Positions 24,725 to 63,718 of a stretch of 64,000 bases of DNA are shown piece by piece. Both the position numbers and the translations under genes were made by a program. How positions within the stretch are numbered: position 1 is the stretch's first letter; the number at the start of each line of letters is the position of its first letter. The notes below the pieces were generated by a model. That model saw only the letters and a list, made by a program, of their open reading frames with translations, did not search any database and was not told the origin of the DNA. Source of the DNA: Lunularia cruciata (taxonomy: Eukaryota > Streptophyta > Marchantiopsida > Lunulariales > Lunulariaceae); contig OX419758.1 of the NCBI GenBank assembly GCA_948567375.1, positions 4,035,001-4,099,000 on the forward strand, in the 5' to 3' direction.

Positions 24725-24748
24725 AATACACTTCATTGTCCTGAGGGG

Positions 24749-37841: not shown

Positions 37842-40800
37842 TGTGACAACCCGGCAAATACCACTTTTGTGGTAATCAGGTAAGTAAAGTTTGTTCCCAC
37901 AGAGATACGAGTTAAAAATTTCCAAATACGAAGTCAAACAGTAACAATGTAGTTCTTCTTGATTGCGTCTTTAATCTCTTAGGTAGAAACCACACCCCAA
38001 AGAGAGTAACAAGCACTGAGTCGTAGTCTTGTCACAAATTAACACTCCTTAATCACAACTCCATCAAATCTTTCCAAACAATCTTGATTGTGATGATTCA
38101 GGCTCTCCCAAAAACGGCACGTCACTACAAAATGACTTTGCCTCAGAATTGTGTTCCACCCCTCCATTGAAGGCACAACTTCCTTGATCAAAATTGCTTC
38201 ACATCAACCTCGCACTACACTCACAAATGCAGAATACTACCAACACTACAATTCCGCTTAGATCTGTCAAGGCATTGCTTCGGTTGCACTTCACTTAAGA
38301 TCAAACACACAGAATGAAGATCAAGGCTGTGGAATTTAACATCCAACAAACACACTGACTTGCACTTCAAATTTCTCCACACACTCACAAACACAATCAC
38401 AAAGTTGATACTCGGAATCAAGCTCAAGTGACAAGCACTGCTTCACAACACTTCACTTTATCTATTCTCAGAATTACGAGCACTGAACAACATGATACTA
38501 CAAATGCCACTCTTAAGTAGTGAATCAATCGACAGTTCTAACAACTATACCGTTTAACAACAACTTTTCTAACCTGTAGATCCAAAATGACAATGCACCT
38601 CTTCATATTTGCCTCTTCAAATCTCAAAACTGTTACTACTCCGATCTGATGTCTACTTCTTCCTTGGCTTTCAAACCCAAACCCGGAGTAATTTTACTTC
38701 CTACTACTCTATCCTCGGGTTTCATAACTCCTATTTCCTCTACCAATTCCAGCAATTCTCTTTCCTGATCTGAAATTGCATTAGTGGGTAATCTATCTAA
38801 CTCTTCATCTCTTGACCCACTCTTCTCTAATGTCTCCACTGGTAATTCCGAAGACATTTGCACTCCTATGTTATCTACTTTGGATTTTGCTCTAACATCT
38901 TTCTGAATTTTTTCTATCTCTATTTTCACTAAGTCTAATCTAATTGAAATATTGTCTTCTACCTCTAAGATCTTCTTGTCTACACGAGTTCTGAGACTAA
39001 TTAACAAGGCATTCAAATTAGTGTCTTTTGCCTGTCTTTGCCTCGTCTCCTGCACCAACAACTTCAACTCGTGCAGCCTTGTCTCTTCAATCCGAACGCT
39101 GGCCTGTGTACTCAACATTGCATTCATCCGGAGGACTATCTCCTTCAAAGGCTCCAATCTCATCTTCCTCTCTTGTTCTCGATCCGCAAGCAAGTCCTCC
39201 TTGTACATTGCCAACTCCGCTTTGAACTCGGCTTTCACCATCTCCTTCTCCTTCTCCTTCTGTGCAACCTTCTCCTCCTGATTACGAAGTTACTCTCTCT
39301 TCTTCCCTATACCGTGCGGCCAACTCTCTTTGCCAGAGTTGCTTCTTCTCCTCTACACTCTCCATCACCCTATCAAGCTCTTGTTCCCTCTTTGCTACTC
39401 TTGCTATAGCATGGATAACTTCTACTCTTGAATCAGCAAACTGCTGCTTCAAAATCTCGTACTCAGCTACTTGTCTCTCCCTTGCTATGTCACTCTTCTT
39501 AGCAAGATCCTCTCGATAACTCACTTCTCTCTTTAGGTCTTCAATTACTTGAGTTCTCACTACTGCCTCCGCTCGTAGTACTTCCCTTCCTCCTCACCTC
39601 GGGTTATACTCTTCTTCAACTCCAAGTTTTCTTCTTCTAATCTCAACAACACTTGCAAGACAGTCTTTACCTCTGGACAAGTCAACTGCATCTCTTTCTT
39701 CTTGTGCTCTAACTTCATCAGCAACGGACATACCACCTCCTACAAATACTTGACTCCATTGCTTGGGATTACTTCTTCTTGCATAGCCACTTCTCTTCGT
39801 ACTTTGGGTTCATCCAATACTCGCCTTCTTCTTTGCAGTCTTCATATCGAAACAGACGCCTTGCTTCCTGAGCTTTCATTTGCTTCTTGCTTCACATTAC
39901 TCGGACTTGCATCACACTTCACCTTACACCTTGAGCGGACTCTTCTTTGAACTGCAATCTTCTTCTCTTCGGGCTTGGTACCTCATCTTCCAACTATGTG
40001 TTGTCCTCGGCTTTGGTCTCTGCCTGCACTTCTTCTTCTTGTTCTGCAGCAGTTGGTGCCAATGTCATTTCTCCCCCCTCATCGCTGTCGCTACTCATAT
40101 CTCCACTCTATAGTGTTAGCTCAGGCTCCTCCTCGTGTTCCGAGTCTTTGTCTTCCGACCCGATCACCACCATACCTCACCTCGGGTTTCCTCTTCTTGT
40201 CTTCCAAGGTTTCTTCGTGTCTTTGGCTTTGCCTTGCCGACTTCTCTTCTTTGAGTTTAGAGTACTCACTTCAATCTCAACATTCTTCCCTGTCTTCTTG
40301 TAGTACTCGTCGGTGCTTCTGATTTGCAAAATGTACTGCTGCTCCTCTACATCGACCTCCTTTCTCAAATCGGGATGGAAATGCGACACCATTCGAGTTC
40401 ACTCCACCGAGTTCAACAAATTCAACCCAAGGTAGAAATGAGCTACAAACGGCATGATGTAGTGTGGGGGTGATTTATCCTGCAAATTCCACACCATTTG
40501 TTGCGTTCTCCCATGGAAACACCTCGCCCAATTAGTTGGTTCTCTTGCAAACAGTTTGTGAAAGAACACCGCTTGGTGTTTCATCACATATGTTGTTCTC
40601 TCCAGCTTTAGGATTACCATCAAAGCACTCACAATTCCTCTCTTGACAGGGTCTTTGTAACTCTCTACCTTGTAACCATTCTTCGTCCGCTTTGACAAGA
40701 ATGCATCTTTCACCTCTTGGGTTTTGTGGGCTATCTCTCCCTTCTCCAAGAATGTGGCCCCTTGCTCCGAGCCTGCTTCCTTCCCCAAGACTAATCTCCA

Positions 40801-42097: not shown

Positions 42098-43867
42098 TTA
42101 CAAAATAGTAGGCTATCTTCTTTCACTAGATTTTTGCATGAGAAGTAATAAATTGGGCAAAGTGTTTTCACCAAAGAGTGGGACAAATGATTACAAATTG
42201 GAGAATAGACCTACCTTTGCGTTACTTTGTATTCTTTATTGCCCATTTCTACTTGGGATTGAACCTACTCAACTCCAAGGAGAAAGGAAGGATGGTGTCA
42301 CATGTTCATCCCAATCTATATCGAGTTGCAAATGAGGATGAACAATGTTATATAAAGCAAATTCATGAAGAAGATGAGTATTTCAAGAAGACAAGGAAGG
42401 CAAAGATAGTAGCTCTAAGTGTTCCAAGACCAAAGGAACAAAGTAGACAAGAAGAAGGAGCATCACCAATTTGGCCACAAAAGATGAGGAAGCTAAATCC
42501 AACACAAGTGGTGGCGATGGTAAATGTATCATCAAGTGGAGAATCATAAGGAGAATCTGAGCCCAGGAGTGAAGACTTGAGCAAAGAAAAAGAGTTCACA
42601 CTACAAACTAAGGAGTCTACCAATGATAGTGAAGGCAAGGTGGAAGTCCAACAAGTGAGGAATGAAGAGATTGAAGAAGAAGAGCAGGAGTTTCATGCCA
42701 AGATTGATTGGATGGAGGGAAGTGATGATTGAGTCTAGAGTTGCCAAAGGAAGACATTCCAAAAGAGAAAGAAGATGAGTTAGCTTGGGTGTTTTTGGAA
42801 GGAGTGAGGACTCATGAGAAATCTTTGGATTTTGATGGCAAACCTTGGTCAAACTATGGATGAGAGAGAAAGCTCAAAGGATGTTACATTGCAGGTGAGA
42901 AGGTTGAGACTTCAAGGTAAAGCACCAGCCCAAGAAGTGACTACCAAATCCGAGTACAAAGACCGTGATGATATAGAAGGGTTTGGTGGGGTGGGATATT
43001 TTTCCAAGATCATCTCTCCGTTGTTGATAGAGTTGCAATAGACAAGGATGGAGCTGAAGAAAGACCATCCTTAAGTAAAGGATGAGTTACGTAGTGACAT
43101 ATCTGAAGGAAGAAATTTGGCATTGAAGAGAATGTTTAACTCAAGGAGAGGAGGGAGCCAAAGAACTTTGGGTTGATGCAATACTTTGGCAAAAGACCTT
43201 TGATAATCTGCAAGCAAATTTTGAGAAGCGTGGTGATGAAATTGAATGAAGAATTGAAAAATGGATGGAGTAGAAGGCAACAATCAAGAAGATGAAGGGT
43301 GAAATTGCTAATGCAAGGTTAGAGGTAATACATTCAAAAGCAATGGTAGTTGTGCTGGAGCAAGAGGTGGAGAGCTTAAGGAAGGTAGTAGTGGAGAAAG
43401 ATGAAGCCTGGCAGTGTGAGTTGACCGATAGACACCAAGAAGAGGAGAGACTGTGAGGACTGATCAGAAGTGTAGAGATTCAACTAGCCCAATATGTAGG
43501 GAGAAGGAAGCACTGAATGTAGAGTTTGAGGATGAGCTACAAATGTATCAAAATGAGTTGGAAGTAGAGAGGAGTTGGGAGAAGGTAATTCCATGCATTA
43601 TATTGGACTAAGTAGGAGAAGTCATTGTAAGAGTGAAGGTGATGTTGAATACTGAAGCCAAAGTGAAGATGGAGGTGGTGAGATTGCACAAGTTTAAGTT
43701 GCTTGTGCAAGAAATGAGAAGGAAGAAGGCAAATGACAAAGACTTAAATGCCTTGTTAATTAGTCTTAGAGAGAAAGAGTAGATAGGAAGATGTTAGAGG
43801 TAGGAGACAACATGAGTCTAAGATAAGATTTAGTGAGATCCAAATTAGATAAACTTTGGATTAATGT
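42098..43867 (+). pseudogene. Diverged U3-type coiled-coil ORF (A5), 5' part outside the window
   Basis: It begins mid-ORF, matching the HQAVFFHKLF and INWARCFHKR region of A2, then FFIAHFYLGLNLLNSKEKGRM and YIKQIHEEDEYFKKTRKAK (open 42,178-42,549). An acidic and coiled-coil region follows in several frames, ending near KLDKLWINV at 43,866. Protein-level similarity to A2 is clear while DNA similarity is low, so it is an older or separate lineage. The A4 insertion splits it. The DNMT element follows at 43,868. Confidence 0.7.
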
Positions 43868-44235
43868 GTATGTAGGATTCCAATCCATGTTTAGGGTATT
43901 GACTTCACGGTAGGGCCCACCGTCACTTTGCACTGTTTGCACCATCAAGTGTACCGTCAGTGGGACCATTAGGGTTCCAAACCTAGGTCAAGTCCAGGGA
44001 GTATACTTTTGAAGTGTAGCTCCAGAGAGCTCACTTCTTTGATGTTGAGCCTTCGAGTTCCTGGCTATGGTGGATAGAGGCCGGCAAGCGTCACATGGAT
44101 GCTCTATGCTAGAGTGGGTGTGGCTTGACTGTAATCAATGTCCAATTGTTGGCAGTTTATAGAGTGACACATCAAGTACTGATCTGAGTTGAGTTGAGTT
44201 GAGTTGAGAGTGGTAAACAATCTGAATACATCAGA
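43868..44235 (+). repeat. 5' LTR remnant of D1
   Basis: atgtttagggtattgacttc onward aligns with 53,172-53,500 of the 3' LTR, including the gttga pentanucleotide run (44,188-44,212). The first ~220 bp is missing. Homology to the 3' LTR ends at aacaatctga (about 44,225); the true LTR end is uncertain. Confidence 0.75.
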
Positions 44236-45446
44236 GAAGTGAAGTCAGGAGGTAATCGGGTGCAAGAACTTTGAGTGTTGGTGATATCTCAAAGCTCGGT
44301 GGATTGTTGGTAGCTCAATTCAAGTTCAGTTTTTCCCTAGTGTGCAGAAGCTTGTTCAATTGATGTAGATTTGGTAGTAAGGCAGATGGTGTGCGGAAGC
44401 ATTGGCCAATTTTTGAGCAAATAAGGAGCAAATTTCAAGCAGTGGTTGTGATTTTGAGCTTAGGAGGTGAAGGCAGGACCAATTTGTTGTGAGTTGGGCT
44501 CAGAAAGTAAAATTGAAGGTGGAGTTGGGAAGCTATTCTCGTGAATTTGTGATTTGGAGAAACCCATGTTTTCAATTTGGCTTGAGTGAAGAGTTAGTGG
44601 AGGATTTGGCAGTCAGCCAAATTTAGGGTTTACGTCCGATTTTACGTCAGATTTTGGCTGGATTTTATGTTAGATTTTGGCCAGATTTGGAGGACTTTCG
44701 CCAAGTTGGAGGACTTTTGCAAGTTTGGAGGAGTTTTGCCAAATTTTTGAGAAGGTTCAAAGTGGCAAGAAGAAAGGCCTTATTTGGCTGAATTTTGGGA
44801 TTTAGAGGCTTTGAGAGGCTATGAAGGCCTAGAAGGGCCAGCAAGCCATCTTGCTGGCTTGAGGCTAGCTAGTTTAGAGTAGATCTTGGTCATTGGTTGG
44901 CAAAATCTTCCATCTTGCTAGATTGTGCGCAACAAGGTTTGACCCCTAGATCTCTTGTTCCTAGATTGGTGCCCTAGCCAACTGGTCCACCCTCACTTGT
45001 TGTCCAAGTACTTGAGCCACTATTATCTATACACTTGTAGCTTTGGCTAGGAGAGGCAATTTGATCCCATTCTTGGTAGCTTAGAACTTAGATACAAACT
45101 TCTCTTATGTCAAATGTCAAATGGTGGCAGAGTCAATCCCGTGTTGTTTTATAAGATGGAGTGTTTTTGTTTAGATTTCTTGTGATTGGACCCACTCCAG
45201 TCTCGGCTTCTTGTTTATGCACCATGTTTGTGTGAGGTGCCCTGACTTTTGAGCGTTGGTGCTCTGGTGTGCTCTCGGTAGTGAGCTGGAGTGATGACCA
45301 ATCAGACTACCTTTGTTTCTCTTTGGTAAGGCAGGGAGTGATGACCTGCAGACCATGAGAGTGTGAGTTTTGATGGCAGGTTACAGGTTGTCCTTTCCCC
45401 TAGTTTAGTTATCTCGGTTAGAGTTACATTAGTGGATGGTGCTTAG
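44236..45446 (+). other. D1 leader region, no gene seen
   Basis: About 1.2 kb without a supportable ORF, similar to the minus-strand D2 leader (63,220-63,718). It has imperfect repeats of a gattttacgtcagattttgg type at 44,630-44,690. At 45,125 tggtggcagagtc, shared with D2 (TGGTGGTAGAGTC), is a weak primer-site candidate resembling initiator tRNA-Met (three mismatches in 13). If correct, the LTR would be much longer than the 3' copy suggests. Confidence 0.5.
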
Positions 45447-46780
45447 TTGGTGTTGGCACTTGGTGGTGTTTGGTGGGGAACTTGCGGTTGTAGTTGTGGT
45501 TACTTTGTCACGACGGAGTTCATTGGGGATTCCAGAGGACTTAACCCTGTAGTACGCAATGGGTTTACTCGGAGTGGTGCTCGATATCAGCATGTATCTC
45601 AGGTCCTAGTGAGAGAGGAGATTGACTCTAAGTTGGAGTTTGACATAGGAGCTAATTCAATTGAGAGTGCACTTGGTGTGTCCGCACCGTTGTTGTGGGA
45701 CATGGACAAGATTTAAAGGGCCTCCAAAGGCCTTAGGCGTTACTTTGGTATAGTGGTTACCATTGAGTTGGATGACTTCATCCAAGAGTTTGATAGTTGG
45801 TGTGATTTGCAATAGATGCGGAACCCAACTTTGTTCACACCCTTCATGGTATGGAAGGGGTTGTTTCAACACTTAGAGGGTCCACCGATGGATGACTACC
45901 ATGAGTTTAGGAGAGCTCATTTGGAGGAGATTGAGTTATGGAGACAATATTGGTCTCCAAACTATGTCTCTTTCACTTCAGGCTCAATAGCCAAGAGTAG
46001 ATTGGTTGTACCTACGAGTTCTAGCTTGAGTAGTGTTGGTGGAGCTAGTGGAGGTGCTCTAGTTGGAGATAGTGCTATGGTAGGTAGTAGAGGAGCTCAA
46101 GTTCATGGAAGACAAGGTGGTAGAGGTGGTGGTAGAGGATCTACACGTAGTAGGGGTGCAATACTTGCCCTTACTTCTAATATAGCTATGGCTACTCGGA
46201 TTGAGCAATTGGAGCAGAGATAAGCTAGTATAGCTATTGCTCAAAGGAGAGCAGATTTGGGTGTTGAGACTTCCACCTCATATGCTGGTGATAGAGATGC
46301 TTTGGATTTCATGTGCAAAGCAACACAGGTGGATGCATCCACAGTAGTGAATAGGAGTGCAATACGTGCTCTAGAGCCAAGAGGAGCATCAGTGGAGTTA
46401 GACCCATAGAGAAGAGAGGTTGGGAAACACGTCAGACTTCCCCCGTCTTTCATGCTATCTGAGGCATTGTAGACAACATCCATGGTTCCTAGACGTCCTA
46501 GTGCAGGTGTGGTAGGTGGTGATGGAGTGCATGATGGACTACCTGCTAGTCAACCACCTACTACAACACAGACCAATCTAGCATGATGTTGGGGGCGGCT
46601 CAGCTGATTATGGGGCATCCTTTGTTTTTGGCCAATGACATGTTTACATTGGGAGTTGACCCAGCCCAAGTGTTCTAGTTGGCTGCCATGCTTTGTGAGA
46701 GTAGGGATGATGCGGTTCCTACTACTAGAGCAGAGGTGGTTGGTAGTGAAACTGAGTTGGTTGAGGAGCATGGATCGGTT
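45447..46780 (+). pseudogene. Gag of D1
   Basis: Starts MVLALGGVWWG at 45,447, with stops at about 45,714 and 45,813. A capsid-like region at 45,816-46,223 has FMVWKGLFQHLEGPP, HEFRRAHLEEIELWRQYW and then a Gly/Arg-rich stretch. The two CCHC knuckles present in D2 are missing, apparently by an internal deletion near 46,000-46,080. Downstream parts (AGDRDALDFMCKATQVDAS; GHPLFLANDMFTLGVDPAQ) are in broken frames. Confidence 0.75.
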
Positions 46781-47400
46781 TAGCGACCAATGGTTTATGG
46801 TAGGCTATAGCGGCTAGACTGGAGGAGTTGCCAACTAGACCGGCCTTTGAGAGAGCACAGTTCACACTTGGTGTTGTCCTATTAGATAACCAGAGGGGGA
46901 TTTTCTGTTTGGTGGGACCTTCAGGGAAGGTCTATACACCACAAAGAGTCTTGTTAGACTCTGGTGCACGACCCCTTATGTTGGGGAAGGCTGTAGTGGT
47001 TGGTTTGGAGTTATGGAAGATCAATGTGGAGAGGTGTCCATTTCAGATCTAGACATCTCTAGGTGGTGGTTTGACATAGTACATCACACATGGAGAGCTT
47101 GTTGTCCAGGTTCAGCCTGGTCATCCAACTGATAGCTCAGTGGTGAGAGCTCAGGCTATTGCGACATTAGTTGAGTCATATGATGTGCTAGTTGGGGGAG
47201 CAGTGTTATACCCCATGGGTTTCAACATTGACTATTGGGAGGAGATAGCCTCCTATAGACCTGGTTGGCAGTCTGGTGAGGGACGGGTATGTCGCCTACC
47301 AGTATGCTTTAGTAGTGGTAGTCTTGGCTCACTACAGTCCGGAACCATGGCACCATCAGTTTTAGCTTTTAGTGGTGCAGTTTACTTGGCCTGGTGATTT
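46781..47400 (+). pseudogene. Aspartic protease of D1
   Basis: RVLLDSGARPLMLGKAVV carries the catalytic DSG (Asp codon 46,957-46,959). After a stop and a frameshift, SYDVLVGGAVLYPMGFNIDYW and the RPGWQSG region (47,140-47,397) form the C-terminal part. It separates gag from the methyltransferase and presumably released it from the polyprotein. Confidence 0.82.
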
Positions 47401-48640
47401 GTTGGAGGAGAACGCCCATGTAGAGGATACTTCGGTACCAAAGGAGATCACTTGGATTTGGAGTATGAGTGGGATTGTCCCATCCACCTTGGATGTTCCA
47501 TTGTGGAGTTCAAAGGAGGTATTGCAGCAACATGCAGATTGGTTGGTGTAGTAGGCTTGGAGTGGAGCCTTCGTACCATCAGGAGATGAGTGTGAGGATA
47601 AGCCTCCAAAGTCAATTGCTTTGACACCTCTGGATACCACACTCATTGCTTGGCAGTATGCAATAGAGGGGATATGTCTATTGGAGTTGTTCGGTGGGAT
47701 TAGCATCGGACTAGCTACGGTATTATATGCAGGTATACGAGTACAAAGGTACTTGTATGTAGAGAGATGAGACTGCTAGGCGAGTCTCTTGACATCATGT
47801 GCCACACTTGGCCTATTGGTATTTGGAGTTATTACTAATATCAGCAGTCAGAGGTTACCAGAAGGCCCTACCAGCAGACATTTCCTTAATGGGGTCGCAT
47901 GACCTAGAGAGATATGGGCCTATTCACTTGGTGATTTTTGGATGGCCATGTCAAGGACATACACATGTGGGCCATGCTTTGGGTCTTCAAGATCCTTGTT
48001 TTGGTCTGTTTTGGGAGATCTTACGGATACTACAACATCTCCAGGTTCATCAGTCCATTTCTCCAATTTACCTTTTGGAGAATGTTCCTTTGATGAGTGA
48101 TTCTCGCACCTGAGTGGTGGCAAGTACACATCAGGTCCATTCTTGGATGGGACCTGCTGTATTGTTAGATGCAGCTAGAGTGGGATCACGGGCTCATCAT
48201 CTTTGTCTTTGGTGGACAAACCTCTTATCCAAAGAGGTTTTATAGTGTGCTTATGATGGGATTTAGCGACTTGACCACATCCTTGTTGATGACATCTTGG
48301 ATGTTGGGCGTCAATCTCAAACGGTGGTAGTGGCTGATAGGTCACCTATGGCGGTGGTGAACCTAGAGGGACAGCCTAGAGCCGCATTTCCCACACTCAT
48401 GAGTTTCCCAAGCTCTCATGCTTTCCAAGAGGCAGGACCTAGACTTGTTTGGGACTCATAGTTACAATAGTTGGTGGAGCCCAATGCTGATGAGAGAGAG
48501 TAGGTGATGGGTTTTTGCACCGGTATTACCATTGTTCTAGCAGTGTCAAAGGCATCCAGGTGTTAGGTGTTAGGTCAAGCTATGGACCTGAACTGTTTGA
48601 CCTGGATTATGAGCCTTGGCTTGGCAGAGCAGCATAGGAT
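47401..48640 (+). pseudogene. DNMT3-like cytosine-5 DNA methyltransferase domain of D1
   Basis: Motifs are in canonical order. Motif I: LLELFGGISIGLATVLYAGI (47,675-47,734), the AdoMet-binding loop, followed by QRYLYVERD. Before motif IV, YGPIHLVIFGWPCQG has the catalytic Cys codon at 47,949-47,951. Then LFWEILRILQHL and motif VI LLENVPLM (48,075-48,098). Motif VIII: LLDAARVGSRAH then LWWTNL (48,160-48,220), like the SAAHRARYFWGNL of DNMT3. Motif X: VLGQAMDLNCLTWIMSLGL (48,568-48,625), preceded by a VMGF segment. Motif order is DNMT3-like, not permuted like plant DRM. PCQ replaces the PCN of animal DNMT3. In-frame stops at about 47,768, 47,777 and 48,109 and frame changes make it a pseudogene. 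Upstream 47,401-47,640 is an unrecognised ~80-residue segment. Confidence 0.87.
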
Positions 48641-48978
48641 GCACATGATAGGCATCACCACTCGGACACTTGTGAGCCTTGTGCCGATCGAGATGATTCA
48701 GGCACATGCCGGGAGCAATGGACCGAGTGGACATGGTATTCTTGGAACACAGCTAGTAGCTACTAGGGAGAGTGGTCTACTTGGAGTCCAGCCAGGTCAG
48801 CGTGGGCTACTTTGATTACACCCTTGGTCCACTTGAGATGTAGCTAGAAGACATGTGGAGCTTGCAGCCAGAGTGGAGGGAGTTTTCACACAAAGGTTGG
48901 GACCTTTAGTGGTCAGGAGCATGACACTATTGCTCCCAAGGGCTCAATGTAGCAGCTAGTCAGTACGTCTTCCACTCC
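48641..48978 (+). pseudogene. Glycine-rich linker between methyltransferase and RT, D1
   Basis: GPSGHGILGTQLVATRESGL and repeats of the kind LLGVQPGQRGLL, then RRHVELAARVEGVF. The same segment lies in D2 (59,383-59,690), so it is an ancestral part of the polyprotein. No domain recognised; it may be a flexible spacer. Confidence 0.65.
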
Positions 48979-50020
48979 TATGACAATTACAGAGGATACT
49001 TGGGAGCTAGATCTTGGACCCAAGCTTACTGGAGAGGAAAGACAGAGGGTTTGGAGGTTCTTGAGGAGTCACAAGAGTTGTTTTGCCTTCAGTATGAAGG
49101 ATTTTGGTGCTCTAAAGGGACTTGGTACACGGATTGAGCTGACAAGCGATACACCAATTTTCTGATTTCCTTATCGATATAGTGATATGGAGAGGACATT
49201 GATTTAGAGCCGGAGTAGTGACCTTTTTGAGGCTAGTTTGGTGGAGATTTCACATGGAGAGTATGCATCAATGACAATGATGCCAACCAAGAAGAATATG
49301 CATGGCAATTACACAAATAGGCGGATGTGTGGAGATTACCGTCCTATCAACCAACAGACCAGGGCTGATTGGTATGCCATGCCTACATCGAAGGAGATTT
49401 TTGATGCAATTGGGCATGCAAAGGTCTTTAGTACTTTGGATCTTCAAACGGGATATCATCAATTGCCAATCAGGGAGGAGCATAAATCCAAGATAACATT
49501 TTGGGCTATTGATCCTCACGGAAAGGATGTGTTATATCAGTGGAGGTTCTTACCGTTTGGGTTGAAGAATGCTCTTGTTGAGTTCTAGAGGGTCATGGAT
49601 AGGATCCTAGCTAGATTGGATTTTGCTTGGTGCTATATTGATGATATTTTAGTCTATAGCACTATTGTGGAGGAGTATGAGAGACTGTTGTTGGAGGTGT
49701 TTGAGAGGTTGAGATCTAATGGACTCAAATTACATCTCGGGAAGTGTAGGTTCTTCCATGAGCAGGTTGAGTATGTGGGTCACACTATCTTCCCTAGAGG
49801 ACTTGGTGTTTAGTAGACCAAGGTGGAGGCTATCGCACATATTCCTCGGCCTACAGATGTGAGCAGAGTACAAGCATTCCTTGGGTTGGCAAACTTCTAT
49901 CACCGTTATGTTAGAGGATTTAGTGCCATTGCCAAGGCCTTGACGAAGCTGACCAAGCTTACACAAGAGTGGTGTTGGGGAGATGAGCAGGAGAGAGCTT
50001 TTGTGAAGCTCAAGAAGAGG
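48979..50020 (+). pseudogene. Reverse transcriptase of D1
   Basis: FLRSHKSCFAFSMKDFGALK, RMCGDYRPINQQT, FSTLDLQTGYHQLPI, WRFLPFGLKNALVEF and the intact active site YIDDILVYS (49,634-49,660). The thumb shows FLGLANFYHRYVRGFS. Stops at about 49,163, 49,587 and 49,811. It clearly belongs to Ty3/gypsy but differs from the A and C families of this window. Confidence 0.9.
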
Positions 50021-50460
50021 TTGACATCTGCTCTTATTTTGAGGAGACCAATCAGAGGGCGGCCATTTCAGGTTCATACTGATTGGAGTATGTTGGGGCT
50101 TGGAGCGGTGCTCACCCAGCATGATGATGAGGGGAAGGAGTTTGTGGTGGCCTATGCTAGTCACTCCAACAATTCAGCAGAGGCAAAGTATAGTTCATAT
50201 GAGGGAGAGTGCTTGGCAACAGTTTGGGCAGTAGCACATTTCCAATGTTACCTATTTGGTAACCCCTTCACTCTCATCACTGATCATCAGCCGTTGAAGT
50301 GGTTGATGGAGTCCGACAAGCTTTCAAGGAAGCTTGCACAATGGGCTCTGATTTTATAGGAGTATGATTTTGTGATTCACAGACTTGGAGTGGTGAACTA
50401 TGATGCAGAGGGGTTGAGTAGAAACCCATGTCCCAGCCAGCAAGATCAGACCCGAGCACG
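50021..50460 (+). pseudogene. RNase H of D1
   Basis: FQVHTDWSMLGLGAVLTQHD, SSYEGECLATVWAVAHF and LITDHQPLKWL carry all three acidic residues. VNYDAEGLSRNPC marks the end. One TAG at 50,357. Continuous with the RT thumb from 49,823. Confidence 0.88.
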
Positions 50461-52480
50461 TTGGCATGGTGAGACAAATGAGGAGATGATGCCAAGTTGG
50501 CATGCATTGGCCTTTTTGTGTATATTTTTTGAGGCTTTGGTGGTATCTCTCTTAGCGCATCAAGGAGGAGTTATCGAGGTCACAAATCCAGAGAGTGAAG
50601 ATATTGGTATAGTTCAGCGACACATTCATGATGATGTCTTAGTGATGGACTATCTTTGCACAAGTGTTGTGGGTGGCACAATAGGGGCCAGGGAGAGAGA
50701 CCATGTTCCTCAGCAAGCTAGACGGTTCAGATTGGAGGGCAGACATCTTTTGTGTGTATGGGAGGATGGTAGAGTGCGACTAGTATCACTTCCATCTCAG
50801 AGACCACAGTTGGTTCATCATGCTCATGAGGAGCTAGGACATTTTGGAGTAAAGCATACATATAGCTTACTCCAGAGTCATTATTGGTGGCGTGGTATAC
50901 AGACCAAGGTACAACAGTTTGTTGCTAGATGTGTGGTTTGGGACCGAGTAAGAGCATCATTCAATGCTCCTACACCACAGTTACACCCATTACCTATCAT
51001 GGGATTGGGTTACCATTGAAGTTTGGACTTTATTGGACCTTTGACATTGATTGTGAGACATTATCGGTATGTTTTAGTGATGGTGGAGCACTTCTCCAAG
51101 TGGATTGAGTTGGTGGCACTTCCTGACAAGTCTAGTGAAGGGATAACTTACTCGATCCTGGATCAAGTTCTTAGTTATTTTGGTGCACCAACTGATGTTT
51201 TGACTGATGAGGGTATAGAGTTCTTGGGGGAATTTTGGGTCTTATGTGACAAGGCTTTGATTGATCATTGTACTACATGTCGAGATCACCCTGAGGTAGA
51301 TGGCTTAGCAGAGAGAGTGGTTCAAACGGTGAAGAGAGGATTGCAAAAGTATGGTTTGTAGATGGACTATCTTTGCACTAGTGTTGTGGGTGGCACAGTA
51401 GGGGCCAAGGAGAGAGACCATGTTCCTCAGCAAGCTGGACGGTTCAGATTGGAGGGCAGACATCTTTTGTGTGTATGGGAGGATGGTAGAGTGCGACTAG
51501 TACCACTTCCATCTCAGAGACCACAGTTGGTTCATCATGCTCATGAGGAGCTAGGACATTTTGGAGTAAAGCATACATATAGCTTACTCCAGAGTCATTA
51601 TTGGTGGCGCGGTATGCAGACCAAGGTACAACAGTTTGTTGCTAGATGTGTGGCTTGTGACCGAGTTAGAGCATCATTCAATGCTCCTACACCATAGTTA
51701 CACCCATTACCTATCATGGGATTGGGTTACCATTGAAGTTTGGACTTCGTTGGACCTTTGTTATTGACTGTGATACATTATCGGTATGTTTTAGTGATGG
51801 TGGAGCACTTCTCCAAGTGAATTGAGTTGGTGGCACTTCTTGACAAGTCTAGTGAAGGGATAACTTACTCGATCCTGGATCAAGTTCTTAGTTCTTTTGG
51901 TGCACCAACTGATGTTTTGACTGATGAGGGTATAGAGTTCTTGGGGGAATTTTGGGTCTTATGTGACAAGGCTTTGATTGACCATTGTACTACATCTCGA
52001 GATCACCCTGAGGTAGATGGCTTAGCAGAGAGAGTGGTTCAAACGGTGAAGAGAGGATTGCGAAAGTATGGTTTGCAGAGAGGTCACTTTGGAGATTGGG
52101 ATCTCCAATTACCTTGGTTGGCCATGGGCTATCAATTCAGCTGGCAAGCTTCCTTAGCATCCTTCTCTCCTTACTTCCTACTCTATGGACAAGATCCAAA
52201 TTTACCCACAGCCATTCATCGAGATGTTGCTATAGTTTTGGGCTTGGATGACCCAGATGTATGGATGAACGCATGTTCTCATCGGGTAGAGATCCATTGG
52301 AGAGTGATGCCGATGGCCTTTTAGAACTTGGCAATTGCTCAACATAGAGATACTTTACGCTATGCTACCATTTGAGGAGGAGGTTATAGACCCTTGATCC
52401 ATCGATTTCATCTAGGAGACTATGTATATCTACAATAGATAGCACCAACGACACTTGATGTTTCGACAAGCCGCACTTTC
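50461..52480 (+). pseudogene. Integrase of D1 with an internal tandem duplication
   Basis: Zinc region HHAHEELGHFGVKHT and C-x2-C (CVVW in the first unit, CVAC in the second). First Asp LDFIGPL or LDFVGPL, second Asp LTDEGIEF, Glu HPEVDGLAERVVQT. Bases 50,645-51,361 are repeated at 51,362-52,078. The first unit ends in a TAG (from CAG). The second continues into the full C-terminal core with YFLLYGQDPNLPTA. 52,320-52,480 is the decayed connection to the PHD region. Confidence 0.88.
50645..52078 (+). repeat. Tandem duplication, two 717-bp units, in D1 integrase
   Basis: Units 50,645-51,361 and 51,362-52,078 are nearly identical, with a few scattered substitutions. 717 is a multiple of three, so the frame is kept. 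Both carry the zinc region and the D, D and E residues. Not present in D2, so it arose in D1 after the copies separated. Confidence 0.9.
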
Positions 52481-52780
52481 TTGACAGTGCGTGAGGTTTT
52501 GCCATCTGGAGTCCTTGTGTTAGAAGGACGTGATGGTGTTGTTTGGAAGGATCATGTGTGCAATTGTGCACCATATGACCTCCCAAACATTGATGGTACT
52601 ATGGACCCAAGCTTGGCACTTGTACGTGTAGGCTTGAGGTGTATGTTATATGGCTCTTCTGGTGGAGCTACTACTATGTTAGTGTGTAGTAGTTGTTCAA
52701 GAGGATGGTATATGGCATGTATGACTCCTTGTCTCACGGTGGTTCCTCAAGGACATTGGTTATGTCCTAGATGTACTTGA
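52481..52780 (+). pseudogene. Polyprotein C-terminus with PHD finger, D1
   Basis: 99 codons. TVREVLPSGVLVLEGRDGV is a GPY/F-like integrase tail. From 52,640 a PHD finger follows with the C4HC3 spacing: CMLY (second Cys to Tyr), LVCSSC, GWYMAC (His to Tyr), HWLCPRC, with the characteristic Trp two residues before the sixth Cys. The D2 copy keeps the residues lost here. PHD fingers read histone H3 tails or methyl-lysine. TGA at 52,778-52,780. Confidence 0.85.
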
Positions 52781-52936
52781 CCTATAGCTAGTTCATTCTT
52801 TATATGGTATAGATTGCAGACAAGCGACTAACGATGGGGCTCCATGGCACTCAGCCTCTTGATCTTTGCCCATCATAGGGTATACCATATACTTAGCATA
52901 GATGGCTATCTGGAGTTAGAGGGACCTAACCGCCAG

Positions 52937-52948
52937 CTAGGGGGCGAT
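52937..52948 (+). other. Polypurine tract of D1 (degraded)
   Basis: ctagggggcgat immediately before the LTR start TGTGGCACTTT. D2 has the cleaner AGGGGAGAGAT at the same place (56,022-56,032, minus). Confidence 0.65.
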
Positions 52949-53507
52949 TGTGGCACTTTAGAGTCTATGTATGACTTATATGTGAGTTGTGCTTCTATAG
53001 TGTATGATGTTGACAATGATGTATGTTGTGTAGCGATGTATATATGCATGACAACTGTCATGCCATTTGTAGTGTTGCATCTAGATTGCTCGGACACTTG
53101 AGTTCTAGTGATAGTAGTTAGAGTTATCTCATCAATTGCTTAGAGACTACTTTCCAACGGTCAGATTTCATGTTTAGGGTACTGACTTCACGGTGGAGCC
53201 CACCGTCACTTTGTATCGTTTGCACCGTCAAGTGTGCCGTCAGTGGGACCATTAGGGTTTCAGACCTAGGTTGAGTCCAAGGGGTATACTTTTGAAGTGC
53301 AGCTCCAGAGAGCTCACTTCTCTAATGTTGAGCCTTTGAGTTCATGGCTATGGTAGACAGAGGCCGGTGAACGTCACCTGGATTCTCTTTGCTGGAGTGG
53401 GTGTGGCTTGACTGTAATTAGTGCCCAATTGTTAGCAATTTATAGAGTGATCGATCAAGTACTGATCTGAGTTGAGTTGAGTTGAGAGTGGTAAACAATC
53501 TGATTAT
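52949..53507 (+). repeat. 3' LTR of D1
   Basis: Starts TGTGGCACTTTAGAG and runs about 560 bp to aacaatctgattat. TATA-like gtatatatgc near 53,037. Shares 53,172-53,500 with the 5' remnant, including gagttgagttgagttgag at 53,470. The preceding 52,781-52,936 is 3' untranslated sequence without a gene. Confidence 0.82.
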
Positions 53508-53614
53508 TGTGGCACTTTAGAGTCTATGTATGACTTATGTGTGAGTTGTGCTTCTATAGTGTATGATGTTGATAGTGATGTATGTTGTGTAGTGATGTAT
53601 ATATGCATGACACA
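53508..53614 (+). repeat. Second LTR-start copy after the D1 3' LTR
   Basis: TGTGGCACTTTAGAG..GCATGACACA repeats the first ~107 bp of the LTR directly after its end. D2 has the same extra copy, ending at the same GCATGACACA. Confidence 0.8.
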
Positions 53615-55363: not shown

Positions 55364-55469
55364 TGTGTCATGCATATATACATTACTACACAACAAACAT
55401 CATTGTCAACATCATACACTATAGAAACACAACTCACACATAAGACATACATGAACTCTAAAGTGCCAT
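55364..55469 (-). repeat. Second LTR-start copy after the D2 3' LTR
   Basis: Minus strand TATGGCACTTTAGAG..GCATGACACA, mirror image of 53,508-53,614. Confidence 0.8.
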
Positions 55470-56021
55470 AATCAGATTGTCTACAACTCGAATCAACTCA
55501 ACTCAAATCACTACTTGATCTGATCCTCAACAACTTGCCAACAATTAGGCACTGATTACAATCAAGCCACACCCACCCTAGCTAAGAGACTCCAAGTGAC
55601 TCTTGCCGGCTTTTTGTCCATTCTAGCCAAGAACTCGAAGGCTCAACATAAGAGAAGTGAGCTCTCTGGAGCTACACTTCCAAGGTATACTCCTGATTTT
55701 GACCTATGTCTCATCCCAATGGTCCTACTGATAGCACACACGATGGTGCGGATGGTGCAAGTGATTGTGGGCCCCACCATGAAGTCACTACCCAAAACAC
55801 AAAATTTGACCGTCAAAAAGTAGTCTATGAGTAATTGCCAAAATACCTCTAACTACTATCACTAGAACTCTATTATCCAAGCAATCTAGATATGACACTA
55901 CATATGGCATGAGAGCTGTCATGCATATATACATCGTTACACAACATACATTGCTATCAACATCGTACACTATAGAAGCAAAACTCACACATAAGTCATA
56001 CATGAACTCTAAAGTGCCACA
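55470..56021 (-). repeat. 3' LTR of D2
   Basis: Minus strand TGTGGCACTTTAGAG to GACAATCTGATTA, about 552 bp, collinear with 52,949-53,507. Polypurine tract AGGGGAGAGAT at 56,022-56,032. Bases 56,033-56,187 are untranslated. Confidence 0.82.
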
Positions 56022-56187
56022 ATCTCTCCCCTAGCTGGTGGTTAGGTCCCTCTAACTCTAGATAGCCATCTACTCCAAGTATATGGTACCTATGATGGGC
56101 AAAGATTAGGAGGCCGGGTGCTATGTAGCTCCATCGTTAGTCGCATGTCTGCAATCTATACCATATAAAGGATGAACTAGCCATAGG

Positions 56188-56487
56188 TCAAGTACATCTA
56201 AGATATAACCATTGTCCTTGAAGAACCACCGTGAGGGGAGGAGTCATACATACCATATGCCATCCTCTTGAATAGCTATCACACACTAACATACTAGTAG
56301 CTCTGCTAGAAGAACCACATAACATACACCTCAAGCCTGCACGTACAAGTGCCAAGCTTGGGTCCATAGTACCATTAATGTGTGGGAGGTGGCATGGCAC
56401 ACAATTATGCACATGATCCTTCCAAAAAACTCCATCATGTCCTTCTAGCACAAGGACTCCAGATGGCAAAACCTCACACACTCTCAA
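56188..56487 (-). pseudogene. Polyprotein C-terminus with PHD finger, D2
   Basis: 99 codons, collinear with 52,481-52,780. PHD spacing: CMLC, LVCDSY (fourth Cys to Tyr), GWHMVC (His kept), QWLYLRC (sixth Cys to Tyr). Between D1 and D2 every one of the eight zinc ligands is present in at least one copy. The integrase tail EVLPSGVLVLEGHDGV is clear. Confidence 0.83.
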
Positions 56488-57640
56488 GATAGTGCAGCCT
56501 ACAAAACATCAAGTGTTGTCGGTGTTGTTTGCTATAGATATACATAATCACCTGGATGAAATTGACCAATCAAGGTTCTATAACCTCATCGTCCAATAGT
56601 AGCATAATGTAAGGTATCTCTATGCTAAGCAATCGCCAAGTTCTTAAAGGCCATAGGCATCACTCTCCAAAAGATCTCTGCATGCTAAGAACATGTGCTC
56701 ATCCATACATTTGGATCATCTAAGTTCAAAACAACATTAGCATCTCAACAAATGACTATAGGTTAATCTAGATCTTGTCCATAGAGTAGAAAGTAAGGAG
56801 AGAAGGATGCTAAGGAGGCTTGCTGGTTGAATCAATAGCCCATGGCAAACCAAGGTACTAGAGATCCCAATCTCTCAAGTGGCCTCTTTGGAAACCATAC
56901 TTTTGCAATCCTCTCTTCACCATTTGAACCACTCTCTTTGCTAAGCCATCTGCCTCAAGGTGATCTCAGGAGATAGTACAATGATCAATTCAAAGCCTTG
57001 TCACACAAGATCTAAAACTCCCCCAAGAACTCTATACCTTGATCAATCAAAACCTAAACTGGTGCACCAAAAGGACTAAGAACCCGATCCATGAATGAGT
57101 AAGCCGTCTCTTCATTGGAATTGTCAAGAAGTGCCACCAACTCAATCCACTTGGAGAAGTGCTCCACCATCACCAAGACATAGTGAGGATTTCTCATAGT
57201 CAACGGTAAAGGTCTAGCAAAGTCCAAGCTCCAATGGTAACCCAATCCCATGATAGGTAATGGGTGTAACTATCTATATAGATCTAACTTGATCTATACA
57301 TCTATCTATCTACTAGATAGGAACATTGAATGATGCTCTAACTCGATCACAAACCACACATCTGGCAACAAAATAATGTATCTTGGTCTGCATACCGCAC
57401 CACCAATAATAACTCTAGAGTAGGCTATTTGTATGTTTCACTCCAAAATGCTCTAGCTCCTCATGAGCATGACGGACCAACTGTGCTCTCTAAGATGGAA
57501 GTGGTACCACTCGTCCTCTACTATCATCCCGTACACAAAGAAGGTGTTTGCCCTCCAATTTGAACCATTTGGCTTGTTGAAGAACACGGTTCCTCTCTTT
57601 GGCTCCAACTATGCCACCCACAACACCAGTGCAAAGATAG
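56488..57640 (-). pseudogene. Integrase of D2
   Basis: GLGYHWSLDFARPLPL and MVEHFSKWIELVALLDNS (57,054-57,251) with the first Asp. QGIEFLGEF near 57,010 (second Asp preserved as DQGIEF). SFSPYFLLYGQDLD near 56,780 and PNVWMSTCS near 56,690. The zinc region is near 57,370-57,480. A single copy, without the tandem duplication of D1. Numerous stops. Confidence 0.8.
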
Positions 57641-58300
57641 TCCATCACTAAAACATCATCATGAATGTCTTGCTAAAATATACCAATATCTTCACCCTCT
57701 GAATCTGTGACCTCAATAACTCCTCTTGTATGCACCAAGAGAGATACCACCAAAGCCTTAGAAAATATACATAGAAAGGCCAATGCATGTCAACCTGGCA
57801 CCATCTCCTCATCGATCTCACCATGCCAACATGCTCCAATTTGATCCTATTGGGTGGGACATAGGTTTCTCCTCAACTCATCTACATCACGGTTCACCAC
57901 TCCAAGTCTATGTATAATCGTGAAATCATACTCTTGTAAAATCAAAGCCCATTGTGTAAGCTTTCTTGAAAGCTTGTGAAACTCCATCAACCACTTTAGT
58001 GGCTGATGATCAGTGATGGGAGTGAAGGGGTTACCAAATATGTACCATAAAAAATGTGCTATTGCCCAAATTTTTGCTAAGCACTCTCCTTCATATGAAC
58101 TATACTTTGCCTCCACTGAATTCTTGGAGCAACTAGCATAGGCCACCACAAACTCCTTCCCCTCATCATCATGCTAGATGAGCACTGCTCCAAGCCCCAA
58201 CATACTCCAATCAATGTGAACTTGAAATGGTGGTCCTCTAATTGGTCTCCTCAAAATAGGAGTAGATGTCAACCTCTCCTTCAATTCTACAAAAGCTCTC
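57641..58300 (-). pseudogene. RNase H of D2
   Basis: Block 57,847-58,149: MVAYASCSKNSVEAKYSSYE, EGECLAKIWAIAHFLWY, PITDHQPLKWL, VVNRDVDELRRNLC. First Asp region near 58,200. 57,641-57,846 is the linker to integrase. Confidence 0.82.
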
Positions 58301-59330
58301 TCCTGCTCATCTCCTTAACACCACTCCTATGTAAGCCTGGTCAGCTTTGTCAAGGCCTTGGAAATGGCATTAAATCCTCTAATATAATAGCAATAGAAGT
58401 TCACCAACCCAAGGAATGCTCACACTCTACTCACATCCATAGGTTAAGGAATACGTGCAATAGTCTCCACCTTGGTCTGTTGAACACCAAGTCCTCTAGG
58501 GTAGATAGTGTGACCCAAATATTGAACCTACTCATGGAAGAACCTACACGTCCTAGGATGTAATTTGAGTCCATGATATCTCAACCTCTCAAACACCTCC
58601 AACAATTGTCTCTCATGCTCCTCCATAGTAGTGCTATAGACCAAAATGTCATCAATATAGCACCAAGCAAAATCCAATCCAGCTAAGATCCTATCCATGA
58701 TCCTCTAGAACTCCACAGGAATGTTCTTTAACCCAAATGGTAAGAACCTCCATTGATATAACACATCCTTACCGTGAGGATCAATAGCCCAAAATGTTGT
58801 CTTGGACTTATCCTCATCCCTGATCGGCAATTGATGATATCTTACTCCAAGATCCAAAGTACTAAAAACCTTTGCATGCCCAATCGCATCAAAGATCTCC
58901 TCAAGTGTAGGCATGGCATACCAATCAGCCCTAGTCTATAGGTTGATAAGATGATAATCTCCACACATCTACCTATTTTTGTAGTTGCCATGCATATCCT
59001 TCTTGGTTGGCATCAATGTAGCTTATGCATACTCTCCATGTGAAATCTCTACCAAACTAGCCTCAAAAAGGTCTCTACTCCGGCTTTGAATCAATGTCCT
59101 CTCCATATCACTACATCGATAAGGATGCAGAAAACTGGTGTATCGTTAGTCAGCTCAATCTGAATACCAAGTCCTTTTAGAGCACCCAAATCCTTCATAC
59201 TAAAGGCAAAACAACTTATGTAGCTCCTCAAGAACCTCCAAACTCTTTGTCTTTCCTCTCCAATAAGCTTGGGTCCAAGATCTGGCTCCCAAGTATCCTC
59301 TATAATTGTCATAGGAGTGGAAGACATATT
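58301..59330 (-). pseudogene. Reverse transcriptase of D2
   Basis: Thumb near 58,380; CYIDDILVYS near 58,650 with the active site intact; FSTLDLGVRYHQLPI and WRFLPFGLKN (58,705-58,914); N-terminus FLRSYISCFAFSMKDLGALK (59,091-59,327). Stops and one frameshift near 59,130. Confidence 0.85.
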
Positions 59331-59690
59331 GATTGGCTACTACATTGGGCCCTTGGGAGCAGTAGTGTCATGCTCCCGACCTCTAGACCACGTCTATGTG
59401 AAAAACTCCCTCCACTCTGGCTGCAAGCTCCACAAGTCCTCTAGCTGCATCCCAAGTGGACCAAGGGTGTAATCCAAGTAGCCCATGCTCACCTAGATGG
59501 ACTCCAAGTAGACCACTCTCCCTAGTAGCTACTAGTTGTGTCCCAAGAATACCATGTCCACTTGGTCCATTGTCTCCAACATGTGCCAGAATCATCTCCA
59601 TAGGCATAGAGCTCACAAGTGTCCGAGTGGTGATGCCTATCGAGCACATCCTTTGCTGCTCTGCCATGCCAAGGCTCACAATCCAGGTCA
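59331..59690 (-). pseudogene. Glycine-rich linker of D2
   Basis: GPSGHGILGTQLVATRESGL and LLGVHLGEHGLLGLHPWSTW, better preserved than in D1 (open 59,383-59,721), then RGLVELAARVEGVF. Shared by both copies, hence ancestral. Confidence 0.68.
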
Positions 59691-60530
59691 AATAGTTTAG
59701 GTCCATAGCTTGACCTAGCACCTAATGCTTGGATGCATCTAACACTACTAGAACAACGGTAATACTAGTGCAAAAACCCATCACCCGCTCTCTCTCATTG
59801 GCATTGGGCTCCACCAATTGCTATAATTGTGAGTCCAAACAAGTCCTCTCTCTTGAAAAGCATGAGAGCTTGGAAACTCTTAAGTGTGGGAAAAGCAGCT
59901 CTAGGCTGTCCAACTAGGTTCACCATTGCCATAGGTGACCTATGAGCCACTACCACCATTTGAGACTAATGGCCAAATGGTCAAGTCGCTGAATCCTATC
60001 ATAAGCTCGCTGTAGAACCTCCCTAGGTAAGAGGTTTGTCCACCAAAGATGAAGACGATGCGCTCGTGATCCACTTTGGCTGCATCTAATAATACTATAA
60101 GTCCCATCCAAGAATGAACCTGATGTGTACTTGCCACCACTTTGGTGTTAGAATCACTCATCAAAGGAACATTCTCCAAAAGGTAAGCTAGAGAAATGGA
60201 TTGATGGACTTGGAGATATTGTAATATGTGTAACATCTCCCAAAACACTCCAGATGGACATCCTAAAGACCAAAACCTCAGCTAGCATGTGTATGTCCCT
60301 AACATGGCCATCCAACAATCACCAAGTGAATAGGACCAGTCCTACATCCCTAGCAAGGAAATGTTTGTTGGTAGGGTCTTTTGGTAACCCCTGATTGTTG
60401 ACATTGGTAATAACTCAGGATACCGATGAGCCAAGTGTGCCACATGATGTAGAGAGACTCGCTTGGCAGTCTCATCTCTCTCTACATACAAGTATCTCTA
60501 TACTCATATACTCATATGCTAACATGGTCC
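59691..60530 (-). pseudogene. DNMT3-like methyltransferase domain of D2 (motif I deleted)
   Basis: Motif IV: GPIHLVIVGWPC then a TAG where D1 has Gln (Cys codon complement at 60,302-60,304). Motif VI: AYLLENVPLMSDS (about 60,160-60,190). Motif VIII: LLDAAKV, then after a one-base loss SRAHRLHLWWTN (about 60,040-60,080). Motif X: MLGQAMDLNYLTWIVSLGM (59,665-59,721). Post-motif-I text YVERDETAKRVSLHHVAHL (about 60,440-60,490) is present, but motif I itself is deleted at about 60,530, where protease-side sequence joins directly. Independent support for the domain in this family. Confidence 0.82.
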
Positions 60531-61404
60531 CGGATTGTAGTGAGCCAAGACTGCCACTACTGAAGCATATTGGTAGGCAACATATTCATCTTTCACCAAA
60601 CTACCAATCTGGTCTATAGGAGGTTGTCTCCTTCCAATAGTCAATGTTGAAACCCATGGAGTATAACATTGCTCCTCCAACTAACACATCATATGACTTA
60701 GCTATTGTCACAATAGCCTGAGCTCTCACCACCTAGCTATCATTTGGATGACCAAGCTAAATCTAAACAACTAGCTCTCCACATATGATGTATTGTGTCA
60801 AACCACGACCTAGAGATGTCTAGATCTAGAATGTACACCTCTCCACATTGGTCTTTCATAACTCCAAACCAACTACTACAGCCTTTCCCAACATAAGGAG
60901 CTACGCACCAAAGTCCAATAAGACTCTCTATGGTATATAGACCTTCCTTGAAGGTCCCACCAAATGGAAAATCCCCCTCTAGTTATCCAATAGGACAACA
61001 CCAGGTGTGAACCACGCTCTCTCAAAGGCTAGTCTAGTTGGCAACTCCTCCAATCTAGTTGTTATTGCCTGCCATAAACCATTGGTCGCTAAATAGATCC
61101 CATGCTCCTCAACCAAGTTAGCTCCACTATCAACCACCTCTACTCTAGTAGTGGGGACCACATCATCCCTACGCTCACAAAGCATGGCAACCAACCAGAA
61201 CACTAGGGCTAGGTCAACTCCCAATGTAAACATGTCATTGGCTAAAAACAAAGGACAATGCATAATCAGCTGAGCCGCTCCCAATATCGTGCTAGACTCA
61301 ATTTGTGTAGTAGCAGGTGGTTGACTAGTAGGTAGTCTATCATACACTCCATCACCACCTACCACACTTGCACTAGGATGTTTAGGAGCCGTGGATTTTT
61401 GCAA
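60531..61404 (-). pseudogene. Protease of D2
   Basis: Block 60,979-61,404 ends FERAWFTPGVVLLDN. Then RVLLDFGA (Ser to Phe after the catalytic Asp) near 60,920 and SYDVLVGGAMLYSMGFNIDYW near 60,650-60,700. Collinear with 46,781-47,345 of D1. Confidence 0.78.
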
Positions 61405-63210: not shown

Positions 63211-63718
63211 GAATAGTACCCACTAATGTAACTCTAATTGAGACAACTACACTAAGGGAAAGGTGACTTGTAACCTGCCATCACAACACACACTCTCACG
63301 ATCTACATGTCATCCCTTATTGCCTCACTGGAGAGAAACAAAGGTAGTCTGACTGGTCATCACTCTAGCCTCACTATCCAAAGCACACCAAAGCACCAAT
63401 GCTCAAAATTTAGGGCACCTCACACAAACACGGTGCACAAACAGAAAGCGTAGAATGGAGGGGATCCAATCACAAGAATGCTAAATGAAAACTGTCTATC
63501 TCATAAATCAACATGGGACTGACTCTACCACCATTTGGCATTTGACATAATTGGAGTACCTATCTACTTCCTATGCTACAAGGATCAACCAAGATTGAAT
63601 CAAAGTTCTTCTCGCCAAAATCTGATGGAAACCCTTCACAAAATCTGACATAAAATTTGACATAAATCTAACATAAATCTCTAAAAATGGCTGATCGCCA
63701 AATCCTCCACTAACTCTT
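63211..63718 (-). other. D2 leader region, no gene seen
   Basis: Collinear with 44,600-45,440 of D1, including the TGGTGGTAGAGTC primer-site candidate (about 63,513-63,525) and the tcttgtgattggatcc stretch. Ends at 63,718 where an A-type LTR begins, so the D2 5' LTR is missing or beyond the window. Confidence 0.6.

Follow-up and report, generated by a model that had tools for sequence, protein, structure and literature searches.

The window analysed here, a stretch of 64,000 nucleotides of Lunularia cruciata DNA (contig OX419758.1, positions 4,035,001 to 4,099,000), contains an old and inactivated Ty3/Gypsy-type element, termed D1, that occupies 43,886-53,613 on the plus strand and carries gag, protease (PR), a DNMT3-like cytosine methyltransferase (MTase), reverse transcriptase (RT), RNase H (RH), a DDE-type integrase (IN) and a PHD finger; a second copy, D2, lies on the minus strand of the same window (Table 1). 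An initial annotation, made from the letters of the sequence, had placed a DNMT3-like MTase with five named motifs inside the pol gene of such an element, between protease and RT. In D1 the domain does lie at this place, and six-frame translation recovers all five motifs, unrearranged, in canonical order and on a single strand: besides motifs IV and VI (Table 1) these are motif I (LLELFGGISIG, 47,678-47,710) in frame 2, and motif VIII (SRAHHLCLWWTNL, 48,186-48,224) and motif X (VLGQAMDL, 48,567-48,590) in frame 0. The proposed span of 47,640-48,640 was nearly right, except that the domain begins slightly earlier (~47,609) and its reading frame is interrupted by one frame change past motif I and by stops. 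The D1 MTase is a relic and not an open domain.

The comparison with the C-5 cytosine methyltransferase profile, which had been proposed as a check, gave a match to PF00145 (E=6.3e-8) for the stop-free piece of 106 amino acids at 47,793-48,110, and none of the remaining four D1 MTase pieces in the Pfam scan matched any family alone. A hidden Markov model (HMM) of the MTase family, built from eleven relatives and run over the six frames of the window, matched the MTases of D1 and D2 and nothing else, with collinear profile positions: 5-57, 67-171, 174-216, 227-288 and 325-349 for D1 (55.7, 125.2, 54.6, 78.1 and 33.7 bits, respectively) and pieces spanning 51-100 to 325-350 for D2 (top piece 63.8 bits), whereas 20 versions of the window with its two-base blocks shuffled scored 10.4 bits at most. 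The stretch 47,763-48,719 is 60.5% identical to the Marchantia protein P0003 (Mp_4g09160) in tblastn.

Table 1. Features of the elements D1 and D2 in the 64-kb window (K2P, Kimura two-parameter distance).
Feature	Position	Strand	Evidence or remark
D1 repeat A1, 5' end of element	43,886-44,228	+	87.8% identical to 53,169-53,506; K2P 0.12
D1 gag remnant	45,702-46,502	+	tblastn with Marchantia P0003: 58% and 48% identity, two pieces
D1 aspartic protease region, DSG at 46,957-46,965	46,798-47,394	+	tblastn with Marchantia P0003/P0007: 51%, 49% identity; without own Pfam match
D1 linker and MTase	47,384-48,719	+	mapping with Marchantia relatives
D1 DNMT3-like MTase domain, decayed	~47,609-48,641	+	frame 2 up to 47,767, then frame 0
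Catalytic motif IV, GWPCQG	47,940-47,957	+	frame 0, translation
Motif VI, ENV within LLENVP	48,078-48,086	+	frame 0, translation
D1 RT and RNase H	49,001-50,359	+	PF00078 E=7.6e-8 for 49,208-49,585; tblastn with P0007 58.6% over 49,001-50,752
D1 integrase (H2C2 and DDE core)	50,360-52,324	+	PF17921 E=3e-15 for 50,360-51,016; DDE residues by eye from translation
PHD finger, integrase C-terminus	52,649-52,777	+	PF00628 E=1.6e-5
D1 repeat B1, bounds to ~2 bases	52,948-53,053	+	near-identical to B2, K2P 0.04; purine-rich tract immediately before
D1 repeat A2	53,169-53,506	+	repeat of A1
D1 repeat B2, 3' end of D1	53,507-53,613	+	D1/D2 homology stops within ~2 bases of B2 end
Second copy D2	~55,364-63,579	-	blastn 80-86% to D1 over long pieces; 3' end ~55,365
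D2 repeats	B1 56,023-55,917; A2 55,799-55,469; B2 55,473-55,366	-	same B-A-B as D1
D2 MTase remnant, motif I region deleted	59,644-60,497	-	HMM pieces up to 63.8 bits

Judging from profile comparison, predicted fold and linear motif order, the MTase is DNMT3-like, as the initial annotation had it. DNMT3A gave the strongest profile match (E=6e-26; DRM 2e-14, DNMT1 0.55), and DNMT3 stands ahead of DNMT1/CMT, DNMT2, DRM and the bacterial enzymes. D1 retains both the catalytic Cys (PC) and the Glu of ENV, and the residue following PC is Q, not N: motif IV reads PCQG here and PCN in the animal DNMT3 chains aligned with it. The motif order of DRM enzymes is rearranged, and DRM chains cover only profile positions 23-151; an origin from DRM was ruled out by the linear I-to-X order together with the profile scores. 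No DRM chain occurs in the 50-row list of fold matches, an absence that carries no weight against DRM. The host DNMT3 of plants (Yaari et al., 2019, PMC6453930) shares a DNMT3-type catalytic domain in canonical order, and the present MTase differs from it and from DRM in being element-borne. In the MTase tree the sole DNMT3A row sits on a very long branch (2.43), and its position there is meaningless.

The integrase of D1 ends in a PHD finger, a feature that, along with the split repeats and the second copy, is additional to the initial annotation. From integrase to PHD (51,956-52,777) D1 is 72% identical to Marchantia Mp_7g09570 (P0036), where a PHD finger also follows the integrase, as is common to a wider clade that includes Haematococcus, Pleodorina and Tetrabaena. 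The window PHD (43 amino acids) matches the PHD fingers of CHD4, DPF2 (ubi-d4), KMT2D, ATXR5, PHF21A, BAZ2 and UHRF1 (PDB; 104 sequences at E<=1), several of which read the unmodified tail of histone H3. These matches suggest a role of the finger in integrase targeting.

Relatives of the MTase are numerous. Queried with the D1 MTase frame, 3870 candidates yielded 36 proteins at E<=0.01, labelled as Marchantia polymorpha (16), Calypogeia fissa (1) and Sphagnum (2) or left without a species label (17); the Marchantia entries come from overlapping assemblies, and six of them share one numbering (Mp_2g, 4g, 6g, 7g and two 8g). With the MTase profile, 217 proteins were found at E<=1e-5, scoring being confined to the 8000 candidates with the most words in common, and of 5436 candidates 246 matched the D1 integrase-PHD frame at E<=1e-10. 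The best 120 of these 246 include proteins of Haematococcus lacustris, Pleodorina starrii and Tetrabaena socialis, and the MTase profile is present in 56 of the same 120, in the order RT-MTase-IN-PHD (33), MTase-IN-PHD in a frame without RT (21) or MTase-RT-IN-PHD (2). The other 64 consist of 34 without RT and 30 that read RT-IN-PHD, and 28 of these 30 have fewer than 380 residues before RT, so that an upstream MTase in another frame would not be visible in them. Across 206 aligned sequences, near-duplicates included, the catalytic Cys is retained in 137 of the 144 relatives covering the site and the Glu of ENV in 169 of 175. As far as such comparisons reach, this is a large clade with members in liverworts, mosses and chlorophytes, many of which carry an MTase with conserved catalytic residues. 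Some Marchantia gene models, such as P0036, P0007 and P0014, miss pieces and may be annotation artefacts. One family member, P0041, was deposited as a protein of a Candidatus Obscuribacterales metagenome-assembled genome on a 2.4-kb contig, which is probably a mis-binned eukaryotic contig. A scan of viral contigs gave 28 loci with distant MTases, 22-41% identical in the best segment, six of which were taken as outgroup.

The MTase occupies two positions in this clade. In the streptophyte type, comprising D1, D2 and relatives, it stands between protease and RT, whereas in the chlorophyte type (P0189, P0194, P0198, P0234 and 29 more) it stands between RT, presumably with RNase H, and integrase. 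For the integrase-PHD region, thinning at 75% identity reduced 121 rows to 87, three of the 120 proteins having been too short to enter. The resulting tree (quick method, midpoint root) groups D1 and D2 with Marchantia and explains the MTase position by one change, with 43 chlorophyte-type and 4 streptophyte-type rows including D1 and D2, rows without a state being uncounted. One change is also enough in the MTase tree, made by a careful method with a bootstrap not fully settled, where 36 rows of 56 are of the chlorophyte and 7 of the streptophyte type; both counts depend on few streptophyte-type rows. Frames without RT were scored as chlorophyte type if the MTase-IN distance was below 350 residues (104-334 in the 33 full RT-MTase-IN-PHD frames), a rule that would miscall one Marchantia gene model, P0014, which is absent from both trees. 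The window row falls outside Sphagnum and two liverworts in the MTase tree (support 99/95 for the four rows, 89/78 for the three), with a branch that decay lengthens. Among the 56 proteins, 44 have an MTase match longer than 250 residues, nearly all of them of chlorophyte type; over these, distances in the MTase and in the integrase-PHD region correlate with a Mantel r of 0.535, while the highest value in 5000 permutations was 0.243.

The reading frames qualify the claim that the MTase is encoded inside pol. It holds for some relatives, since MTase and then RT share a single frame in twelve proteins (six Marchantia or Sphagnum gene models and P0026, P0030, P0031, P0034, P0163 and P0165), and P0167, an RT-first frame, starts inside motif X, which places MTase and RT in one frame there. 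In others a gag-PR-MTase frame appears to end before a separate RT-RH-IN-PHD frame: among streptophyte-type frames without RT, 21 of 23 end 53-140 residues past the MTase match and the other two end 23 and 1 residues past it (apparent frame ends), and 18 of 19 RT-first frames start with Met, RT beginning at residue 42-176. A protease motif lies upstream of the MTase in the same frame in many relatives. Were the split genuine, the amount of MTase produced would be like that of Gag. D1 itself, with the MTase in frame 0 and RT in frame 2, is too decayed to count as evidence on this point.

Both copies in the window are dead relics, thus the suggestion of an element able to methylate DNA does not apply to them. 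The allusion of the initial annotation to a seed-plant-type genome is likewise not supported. In protein-guided frames D1 contains 33 in-frame stops (24 TAG, 7 TGA, 2 TAA) and several frame changes, and the predominance of TAG is as from deamination of CAG (CHG). The observed/expected ratio of CpG is 0.29 in D1 (45,702-52,777) and 0.21 in D2 (56,191-62,908) vs. 0.50 in the window at 1-43,000, and this low CpG points to past methylation and deamination, with age as a confounder. Differences between D1 and D2 by codon position amount to 55/294, 39/294 and 51/293 in the MTase (0.187/0.133/0.174), 51/453, 47/453 and 65/452 in RT-RNase H, and 40/273, 33/274 and 51/274 at the three positions of the non-coding end (0.147/0.12/0.186). 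As they are about equal at the three positions, no constraint is visible since the two copies split, and selection can therefore be read only from deep conservation in relatives.

The repeats of D1 follow the layout A-coding-B-A-B, in which B flanks A2 on both sides, and are not ordinary long terminal repeats (LTRs). The junction of A2 and B2 has no spacer and resembles an LTR-LTR junction, and B1 directly follows a purine-rich tract. Split direct repeats here coexist with a DDE-type integrase. The piece 51,821-52,321 of the integrase core has no Pfam match of its own. No tyrosine recombinase was matched in the ten D1 pieces scanned with Pfam, which cover part of the reading frames. Inspection by eye revealed neither a convincing tRNA primer site nor a convincing duplication of the target site. 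In D2 the 5' repeat A1 is expected beyond the window end (64,000), and the window self-comparison gives no counterpart in D2 for D1 47,349-47,733, which includes motif I. The integrase region of D1 bears a tandem duplication of 719 bp (50,644-51,362 and 51,361-52,079, 96.7% identical), of which D2 has a single copy, because it matches both D1 halves at one place. Immediately 5' of D1, at 43,630-43,860, lies another repeat family, similar to 4447-4663, 28487-28715 and 38926-39126; D1 therefore stands beside or within another element, and its 5' end may be truncated. Elsewhere in the window, two inverted copies of another family, Gypsy-like by eye, lie at 21919-27448 and 35768-30215 (87.8% identical over 5.5 kb), and a frame of 482 amino acids in it, 22,417-23,865, is still open and contains protease- and RT-like motifs.

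The closest known relative, as set by described features, appears to be KnitGypsy-Dnmt3 of the charophyte Klebsormidium nitens (de Mendoza et al., 2018, PMC5890265), with which D1 shares Gypsy-type RT, RNase H and DDE integrase, an unrearranged DNMT3 and the A-coding-B-A-B repeats; the paper gives this structure for SymbioDIRS and, in the legend of Fig. 4, for K. nitens. The K. nitens copies were reported to be methylated, and the kinship of D1 and D2 to them is judged by described features alone. That report has the Gypsy DNMT3, for which it gives a Ka/Ks below 0.2, acquired within the lineage of K. nitens, and regards the retroelement DNMT3 of one charophyte and of dinoflagellates as separate captures, whereas the clade described here comprises liverworts, mosses, chlorophytes and the window host. 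It also speaks of a Pol polyprotein open reading frame, in contrast to the relatives here that end a gag-PR frame with the MTase. The word PHD is absent from its main text. Among the MTase and integrase-PHD matches listed (the 36 of the MTase frame, the best 120 of 217 of the MTase profile and the best 120 of 246 of the integrase-PHD frame), most of which carry no species label, none is labelled Klebsormidium. SymbioDIRS-Dnmt3 of dinoflagellates (PMC5890265) has a DNMT3-type domain in a retroelement Pol and split repeats in common with D1, but uses a tyrosine recombinase instead of a DDE-type integrase, and Gypsy and DIRS are considered only distantly related there.

Chromoviruses also carry a chromatin-reader domain at the integrase C-terminus, which is a chromodomain there and a PHD finger (PF00628) here. 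Chromoviruses are not known to carry an MTase. In the literature, land plants are described in one paper as being without such retroelement-borne DNMT3 elements, five Marchantia methyltransferases are named (one MET, two CMT, two DRM; Schmid et al., 2018, PMC5784723), and the retrotransposon-borne DNMT3 of streptophytes and dinoflagellates is cited as previously reported (PMC12344493, 2025). In the excerpts of the open-licence literature searched, neither members from bryophytes or chlorophytes nor the PHD finger nor the occurrence of the MTase at two positions was described. An element of this kind is already known, and what was not found in print is how widely it occurs, its PHD finger and the double placement of its MTase.

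What would an active element of this family do with such an enzyme? Beyond its anatomy, family and conservation, which are shown, we infer methylation of the element's own DNA, by a particle-borne enzyme or after integration, and PHD-guided insertion. The account that we favour, quite possible if not quite probable, is one of stealthy entry at low harm. The MTase, produced jointly with Gag and protease or beside them, would be packaged in the particle and carry out de novo methylation of the freshly synthesised cDNA, or of DNA where the element lands; a new copy would thus arrive marked like host heterochromatin. The PHD finger of the integrase may read the histone H3 tail and steer insertion, as the chromodomain does in chromoviruses. 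The net effect would be that no response to damage or foreign DNA is triggered and the host is harmed less, at the price of early silencing. Several findings weigh against it. P0233, P0243 and P0246, which fall in the tree half with the named chlorophytes, have no MTase between RT and integrase, and in P0184 (Pleodorina) both catalytic motifs seem to be lost, which indicates that the MTase is dispensable. The sole hint of expression in the clade is P0154, whose label is the name of a transcript assembly. D1 and D2 give no codon-position signal, and their low CpG equally fits host silencing and age.

A broader and more doubtful proposal, which we regard as less likely to hold than to fail, is that of an ancient Gypsy-type clade in green plants and algae, probably older than land plants and equipped with an epigenetic kit. 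Its DNMT3-type writer, beside Gag and protease in the streptophyte type and beside integrase in the chlorophyte type, having moved once, would put 5-methylcytosine on the element's own DNA, and its PHD finger would read the H3 tail for insertion, making it a retroelement counterpart of the pairing of histone reader and MTase in animal DNMT3.

Of the competing explanations, self-restraint survives best and is rather unlikely: by silencing fresh copies of the element itself, or related elements, the MTase would keep copy number tolerable and the lineage in existence, with no stealth involved. The CpG poverty of D1 and D2 and the TAG stops, 24 of 33 in D1, are what deamination after CG and CHG methylation would leave behind, and the catalytic residues are kept in most relatives; however, host methyltransferases also methylate retrotransposons, so that such traces cannot be credited to the enzyme of the element itself. 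It is still less likely that the MTase has another target, i.e., the element's RNA or a competing DNA virus or element, the latter as host defence, or that it is mainly a structural part of the particle. PMC6338049 proposes an anti-viral use of retroelement methylases, with speculation on host defence, and PMC5890265 reports no DNA methylation detected for a LINE-type (long interspersed nuclear element) enzyme in yeast and suggests RNA. Yet the domain here is DNMT3-like and not DNMT2-like, with catalytic motifs kept in most relatives, and according to the same source retroelement DNMTs, including a DIRS-borne DNMT3, methylated CG. The present results do not separate the account of stealthy entry from self-restraint or from the RNA and anti-viral alternatives. 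That a host DNMT3 gene or pseudogene was once swallowed by an element, or lies beside one, is most improbable, given the same MTase place in D2 and in Marchantia, Calypogeia and Sphagnum proteins and the protease motif upstream of it in the same frame in many relatives. For the family, a one-off insertion of a host gene is ruled out by D2 and the liverwort and moss relatives, unless all matches are annotation artefacts, and the MTase belongs to the element, as originally claimed.

Retroelement DNMT3 occurs in liverworts and mosses and, decayed, in the window host, in a clade that reaches chlorophytes, thus its capture is possibly green-lineage-wide and not lineage-specific. The parasite-borne enzyme reported from one charophyte looks older and wider in range. 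Surveys of plant DNMT3 genes should set element-borne copies apart. Marchantia, a tractable host with annotated members on several chromosomes, offers a place to ask what retroelements gain by methylating DNA.
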